From NCBI RefSeq assembly GCF_004310395.1, contig NZ_BFAX01000004.1, positions 186,001 through 250,000 of the forward strand: 64,000 nt of DNA, written 5' to 3'. Position 1 is the first letter of the stretch. The number at the start of each line of letters is the position of its first letter. The position numbers and the translations under genes were made by a program. The notes under the pieces are model-generated. The model had not been told where the DNA came from, made no database searches, and saw only the letters and a list, made by a program, of their open reading frames with translations. This document shows positions 49,184-50,098 of this stretch, piece after piece. Source of the DNA: Methanofervidicoccus abyssi (GTDB lineage: Archaea; AGJL01; Methanococci; Methanococcales; Methanococcaceae).

Positions 49184-49432
49184 TATATTTTATTTTATTT
49201 TTTATTTTATCTGTCTGTTTTTATTTTATTTATTTTTCAAACTGATTTTAATTATTTTCTTATTATTGTAATCATTATTTTTTATTGAAAACTCTTCATC
49301 ACCGTGTGTTAGTATATAGTTTTGCCCATGACTATAATTATTATTTTTAGCTAGGACCTTGATAAGAAGTAGGATAAAATTAATATAAAGAGTTTTCATA
49401 CTCTAAAATTAACAATCTAAGAAGGTGATACT

Positions 49433-50098
49433 ATCAAGCCCTTTATAGTTATCAACTATAAAACCTACAGGGAGGGTGTAGGTAAAAGAGGGTTAGAGAT
49501 AGCAAAGATAGCTGAAAAAATCTCGGAAGAGAGTGGAGTACCGATAGGAGTCTGTCCACAGTTTTTAGATCTAAGAATGATAAGGGAGAATGTAAATATA
49601 CCTGTATATGCCCAACACTTCGATCCAGTATCCCCTGGAAGCAACACTGGAAGTATCTTAGTGGACACTCTCGTAGATTGTGGTTTAAATGGCAGTCTCC
49701 TAAATCACTCTGAAAAGAGGATGATCTTAGCAGACCTGGAGAAGACCATTCAACTTGCCAAGGAGCACAACTTGGAGACTATCGTCTGTACCAATAATAT
49801 ATATGTATCAAAGGCCGTGGCTGCCATGGAACCACATATGTTGGCTATAGAACCACCTGAGTTGATAGGTACAGGTATCCCAGTGTCCAAGGCTAATCCA
49901 GAGGTAGTGGAAGGTACTGTAAGGGAAGTAAGGAAGATAAACAGGAGTGTAAGGATCTTATGTGGTGCAGGCATATCCAAGGGGGAAGATGTTGCAGCTG
50001 CATTGGAGTTGGGAGCAGAAGGGGTGTTGTTAGCCTCAAGTGTTGTTAAGTCCAAAGATGTAGAAGGTGCTATAAGAGAACTTATAAAATGTATCTAA
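49433..50098 (+). CDS. tpiA: Triosephosphate isomerase, apparently initiated at an ATC codon
   Basis: A 221-residue archaeal TIM, interconverting glyceraldehyde-3-phosphate and dihydroxyacetone phosphate. Seen: [20 protein letters not shown] near residues 4-23, containing the substrate-binding Asn and Lys, [13 protein letters not shown] near 58-70, LLNHSEKRM near 86-94 (catalytic His), [19 protein letters not shown] near 141-159 (catalytic Glu and flexible loop), and [10 protein letters not shown] near 180-189. The frame upstream of Met49 has no ATG, GTG or TTG back to a stop at 49418-49420. ATC at 49433 is four bases after GGTGA. The short Met49 start would lose the catalytic Lys. Confidence 0.9.

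Follow-up and report, generated by a model that had tools for sequence, protein, structure and literature searches.

Near-cognate AUH start codons at tpiA and a small class of other genes in Methanofervidicoccus abyssi and its relatives

Near-cognate AUH start codons (AUC, AUU or AUA) are already known in bacteria, but they are rare, and a single AUG-to-AUU switch was recorded among 61,358 reconstructed starts (PMC5622118). S. aureus has conserved AUU/AUA starts, among them those of cvfC1, ccpN and infC, which stand next to an extended Shine-Dalgarno (SD) sequence and give about 10% of the output of AUG (PMC13009471). The AUU start of bacterial infC serves the autoregulation of IF3. Weak GTG and TTG starts, such as the GTG of E. 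coli lacI (PMC11445065), likewise set the level of expression. For the Methanococcales, a literature search of open-licence papers found no report of AUH starts.

The stretch of DNA analysed here (the window; 64,000 nucleotides) belongs to the genome of M. abyssi (G000; 1,308,147 bases in 5 contigs, 99.7% complete). On its forward strand, the open frame of the triosephosphate isomerase (TPI) gene tpiA extends from 49421 to 50098, is closed upstream by an in-frame TAA (49418..49420) and has its first ATG, GTG or TTG at 49577 (ATG), which is codon 49 counted from an ATC at 49433..49435. Direct reading of the leader gives the SD sequence AGGTGAT at 49423..49429, complementary to the located anti-SD at the 16S rRNA 3' end (GGATCACCTCCT) and with an upstream-model score of 9.8; GGTGA (49424-49428) is followed by TACT (49429-49432) and then by the ATC. 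This confirms the sequence-only reading, according to which tpiA lacks a canonical start and carries ATC four bases after GGTGA. Taken from the ATC, the gene spans 49433..50098 (+) and encodes 221 residues plus the stop.

The product matches Pfam PF00121 (E=4e-45; TIM family, over nearly its full length), as well as the NCBIfam archaeal TIM model PRK04302 and TIGR00419, both above cut-off. The alignment with the M. jannaschii TIM structure (PDB 2h6r) begins at residue 3 of that chain, so that the ATC falls at the expected start, and the alignment with PRK04302 begins at profile position 3. The N-terminal strand and the catalytic INYKT segment by which an archaeal TPI is recognised are encoded 3' of the ATC by codons 2-48, upstream of Met49, and no usable NTG lies between the upstream stop and this conserved N-terminus. 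Just downstream of the start codon, at 49442-49462 (+), a perfect inverted repeat with a 9-bp stem, TTTATAGTT-ATC-AACTATAAA, is observed. An RNA hairpin at the start was considered and rejected: the predicted fold does not stand out (z -1.2), and different shapes resulted for the two relatives that were folded.

Comparison of tpiA across 36 genomes of the order indicates that the unusual codon extends well beyond this organism. The arrangement GGTG-N5-ATH is present in 16 species from three genera of the family, with ATC in seven (G000, G004, G005, G010, G013, G015, G018), ATT in seven (G008, G011, G012, G017, G019, G020, G021) and ATA in two (G002, G007). In a fourth genus, two species (G014, G016) have ATG at this position; the outgroup family starts with ATG too, with TTG in one species. 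In two species of one genus (G003, G009), an in-frame GTG or ATG lies upstream of the tpiA segment and the start is ambiguous; tpiA was not found in G001 and G006, both incomplete genomes. Because so odd a start is kept across sixteen species, the AUH start of tpiA is a real biological feature of the organism and its relatives, and its failure to revert to ATG would fit selection. Taken alone, the lack of G at the third base is not significant, as 14 of 38 fourfold sites are also never G in the same 15 species.

The genomic context of tpiA follows a similar distribution. In the window, the open frame of an ADH synthase (48178..49023, +; TIGR01949) precedes tpiA, and gene order is the same in all 17 loci examined from the three AUH-start genera (g1-g3), where the ADH-synthase gene lies directly upstream with a gap of 15 to about 800 bases. 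Every examined AUH-start species with readable upstream DNA carries it, and it is absent within 1.5 kb upstream of tpiA in the fourth genus (g4) and the outgroup family, whose species have NTG starts, almost all ATG. Since this association amounts to one evolutionary event, it suggests a link without proving one; with the promoter of another gene in front of it, tpiA may require a weak start. Operon position does not emerge as a general rule for AUH genes, as 3 of the 15 described below lie less than 100 bases from an upstream gene on the same strand, compared with 427 of 1,090 genes overall.

A second ATC-started housekeeping gene with the same geometry had also been claimed for the window; this is most likely the agmatinase gene (28577..29425, -; 282 residues plus stop; PF00491, TIGR01230), the only other AUH site found there. 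Its leader reads GGTGA-GAAC-ATC, with the SD sequence at 29430..29434 (-) and the codon at 29423..29425 (-), beginning at 29425. At the equivalent position, eight species have ATC or ATA, G011 has GTG, and the other genera have ATG or TTG. A comparable pattern is found outside the window for purO, with ATT (G000, G001), ATC (G004, G008) or ATA (G002, G007) and with ATG in nearly all other matched genomes, and for an MTA-phosphorylase-like gene, with ATA in G000, G001, G004 and G010 and with GTG, TTG or ATG at the identical place elsewhere. For these three genes, an AUH codon of the clade replaces the ATG, GTG or TTG of the relatives at the identical position, which is the most direct evidence obtained. 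Furthermore, in the NCBIfam alignments of purO, a kinase and the phosphorylase, residue 1 or 2 of the protein read from the AUH codon is the first to be aligned and falls on the matching model position, so that the AUH codon coincides with the first position of the model.

The proposed genome-wide scan for further starts without NTG was carried out on the whole 1.31-Mb genome and on 89% of the comparison genome G011, with stop-to-stop frames compared between the two. The 16-base model for scoring upstream regions was trained on 670 genes whose NTG start is unambiguous, and the other 58 sense codons served as internal control. Among conserved genes without NTG near the conserved start, high-scoring sites occur at 10 of 164 AUH positions vs 2 of 1,189 others (Fisher p=3e-8). 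In the homology-free scan, AUH accounts for 14 of the 20 strong-SD, NTG-less ORF starts (score >=8), against an expectation of 12.6% (p=5e-9); these comprise seven ATT, four ATC and three ATA codons. The enrichment at start sites is specific to AUH among all codons, and the homology-free signal is weaker in G011 (3/5, p=0.03). When the score cut was lowered, the sole credible addition was MoeA. Three of the AUH genes, tpiA among them, have no match in the 89% of G011 compared.

Collectively, the scan adds about 13 genes and brings the total to about 15, roughly 1% of the genome, with NTG as the start of nearly all genes. The earlier suggestion that AUC is a regular start codon in this organism is therefore upheld in part: ATC is a real and recurrent start, but it belongs to a rare class (~1%) in which AUC is one of three codons, next to AUU and AUA. 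The 15 accepted genes are tpiA, agmatinase, purO, the MTA/MTI-phosphorylase-like gene, RIO1 kinase, a nucleotide kinase (PRK03839), a signal peptidase, a 23S rRNA methyltransferase-like gene, a RimK-type ATP-grasp ligase, a radical-SAM gene, MoeA (with a weaker SD), an NMT1-type lipoprotein, a nuclease-like lipoprotein, a membrane protein and one unknown; for MoeA, the nuclease-like lipoprotein and the membrane protein, the label derives from reading the sequence, without a family search.

Several other frames came to light during the scan. G011 contains three candidate AUH genes, named by eye: dCTP-deaminase-like (ATT, L130:11945, +), pyruvate-kinase-C-like (ATA, L118:13996, -) and glycosyltransferase-like (ATA, L099:4217, -). 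Outside the window, an Mtd-like frame of G000 (NCGNIGTSPLVDL...; C3 near 312763, -, in L086) is missing its normal N-terminus, a defect that looks like a frameshift or an assembly error. A conserved frame that is ThiL-like by eye (G000 C4 16318, -, in L067) aligns with G011 from its first residue after a stop, lacks a clear SD and contains no NTG over 34 codons; this is possibly a frameshift as well.

The AUH start sites share a distinct anatomy. GGTGR stands exactly four bases before the codon in 13 of the 15 AUH genes, compared with 161 of 670 NTG genes (24%; p=8e-7); in part this association is circular, since the AUH genes were detected with the help of SD strength. The base at -1 is T in 14 of 15 and, among genes matched for SD strength, in 68 of 140 (p=6e-4).

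It is very probable that tpiA is translated from AUC by Met-tRNAi at low efficiency, aided by the strong SD and selected for low output. The GGUGAU SD sequence would position the small ribosomal subunit on the tpiA mRNA, and Met-tRNAi (CAU) would pair with the A and U of the codon and tolerate the mismatch at the third base; because of this tolerance AUC, AUU and AUA would all work, more weakly than AUG, and methionine would be the first residue. The strong SD and the pyrimidine at -1, usually U, would partly compensate for the weak codon. In bacteria, a U at -1 may make an additional contact with tRNA base 37, and the same contact is conceivable here. The family has retained the near-cognate codon at tpiA, probably with low translation of a very efficient enzyme being favoured behind the ADH-synthase gene, and in the window's own clade the device would have extended to some 15 genes, mainly those that have weak starts in related species to begin with. 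The AUH start is probably a built-in brake on protein production. What the sequences themselves establish is the identity of the codon, its position, the SD geometry, the conservation and the enrichment.

The main alternative accepts AUH initiation as real but regards it as neutral: a strong SD would make the identity of the codon unimportant, and AUG would have drifted to AUH without selection. The strong SDs of the AUH genes fit such drift, as do the free variation of the tpiA third base among A, C and T, the non-significant lack of G at that base and the absence of any obvious function common to the 15 genes. It is opposed by the orthologues of the AUH genes in G011, among which 9 of 11 readable starts are non-ATG (AUH, TTG or GTG), compared with 144 of 685 (21%) overall (p=3e-5); these starts were read by eye, and that of tpiA was taken from the comparison across the order. 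This preference for genes with weak-start orthologues suggests selection for low output. Moreover, tpiA is still AUH in 16 species of three genera, and AUG starts are generally under purifying selection in prokaryotes (PMC5622118). Neutral drift is considered unlikely, although far from implausible. A more ambitious proposal is that in this one lineage the roughly 15 genes form a genome-wide expression class whose output is set jointly by initiation fidelity (aIF1/aIF1A against the mismatched Met-tRNAi). Such a class would parallel in archaea the control of AUH initiation by IF3, and tpiA would be its ancient member, fixed when it was placed behind the ADH-synthase gene; we regard this as speculative and, on balance, doubtful.

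It is very improbable that translation begins elsewhere, be it at an internal NTG (Met49), at the GTG that the SD contains, with a later frameshift, or farther upstream, with readthrough of the stop, leaving the ATH as an ordinary internal or untranslated codon. An out-of-frame GTG does lie within GGTGA, 8 bases before the ATH, and G003 and G009 have the upstream in-frame codons mentioned above. However, a protein begun at Met49 would lack the catalytic segment, whose conservation is at the protein level, and in many species in-frame stops occur just upstream of tpiA, at differing places. The effect is also specific to AUH among all codons, and in agmatinase, purO and the phosphorylase the relatives have ATG, GTG or TTG exactly at the ATH position.

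A changed initiation code, in which a special initiator would read AUH or isoleucine would be inserted there, is more improbable still. All three Ile codons are in use, as such a code would have it, but the tRNA search (ARAGORN, which may miss intron-bearing tRNAs) found only ordinary tRNAs, namely a clear initiator with anticodon CAU, recognised from the sequence of its stem, and a normal tRNA-Ile (GAU), and NTG still starts nearly all genes. The frame of aIF1 is intact, with an ATG before its conserved part. Both tRNA-iMet and aIF1 look ordinary, which gives no sign of a changed decoding apparatus; an altered initiator tRNA was rejected in view of the CAU initiator, and an altered aIF1 in view of its intact frame. 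A sequencing or assembly error, or a modified base miscalled as C, T or A, can practically be dismissed: one base change would restore ATG in each gene, but ATH stands at tpiA in the independent genomes of 16 species, with three different third bases, and it recurs in agmatinase (8 species), purO (6 species) and the phosphorylase (4 species), so that this conservation refutes an error and bears out the earlier judgement that one was less likely.

AUH starts are exceptional in prokaryotes, yet they account for about 1% of the genes of one archaeon, and the AUH start of a core enzyme gene is kept across a family in which some species are genetically tractable. Archaeal start-codon fidelity, and whether aIF1 acts like bacterial IF3, thereby become directly testable. 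In addition, gene callers restricted to ATG, GTG and TTG probably truncate or miss AUH-started proteins; TPI, for example, would lose its first 48 residues, including the catalytic segment.

Comparison with the known systems places these starts closest to those of S. aureus. As in cvfC1, ccpN and infC (PMC13009471), the AUH codon is conserved between species and stands near a strong or extended SD sequence, and in both cases the affected genes are isolated within a genome that otherwise uses AUG, GUG and UUG. In contrast to S. aureus, the organism is an archaeon with an eIF1-like fidelity factor rather than IF3, about 15 genes in one genome are involved instead of four sites, and these encode metabolic and processing enzymes where in S. 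aureus regulators prevail; their low output is predicted. Bacterial infC resembles the present case in that its near-cognate AUH codon is conserved across related bacteria; unlike infC, TPI and the other AUH genes encode no initiation factors, and direct autoregulation of the infC type is therefore not expected. Weak GTG and TTG starts such as that of lacI (PMC11445065) are similar in that a single-base change of the start codon is kept as an expression setting, but there the first base is altered, whereas AUH alters the third base and is far rarer.
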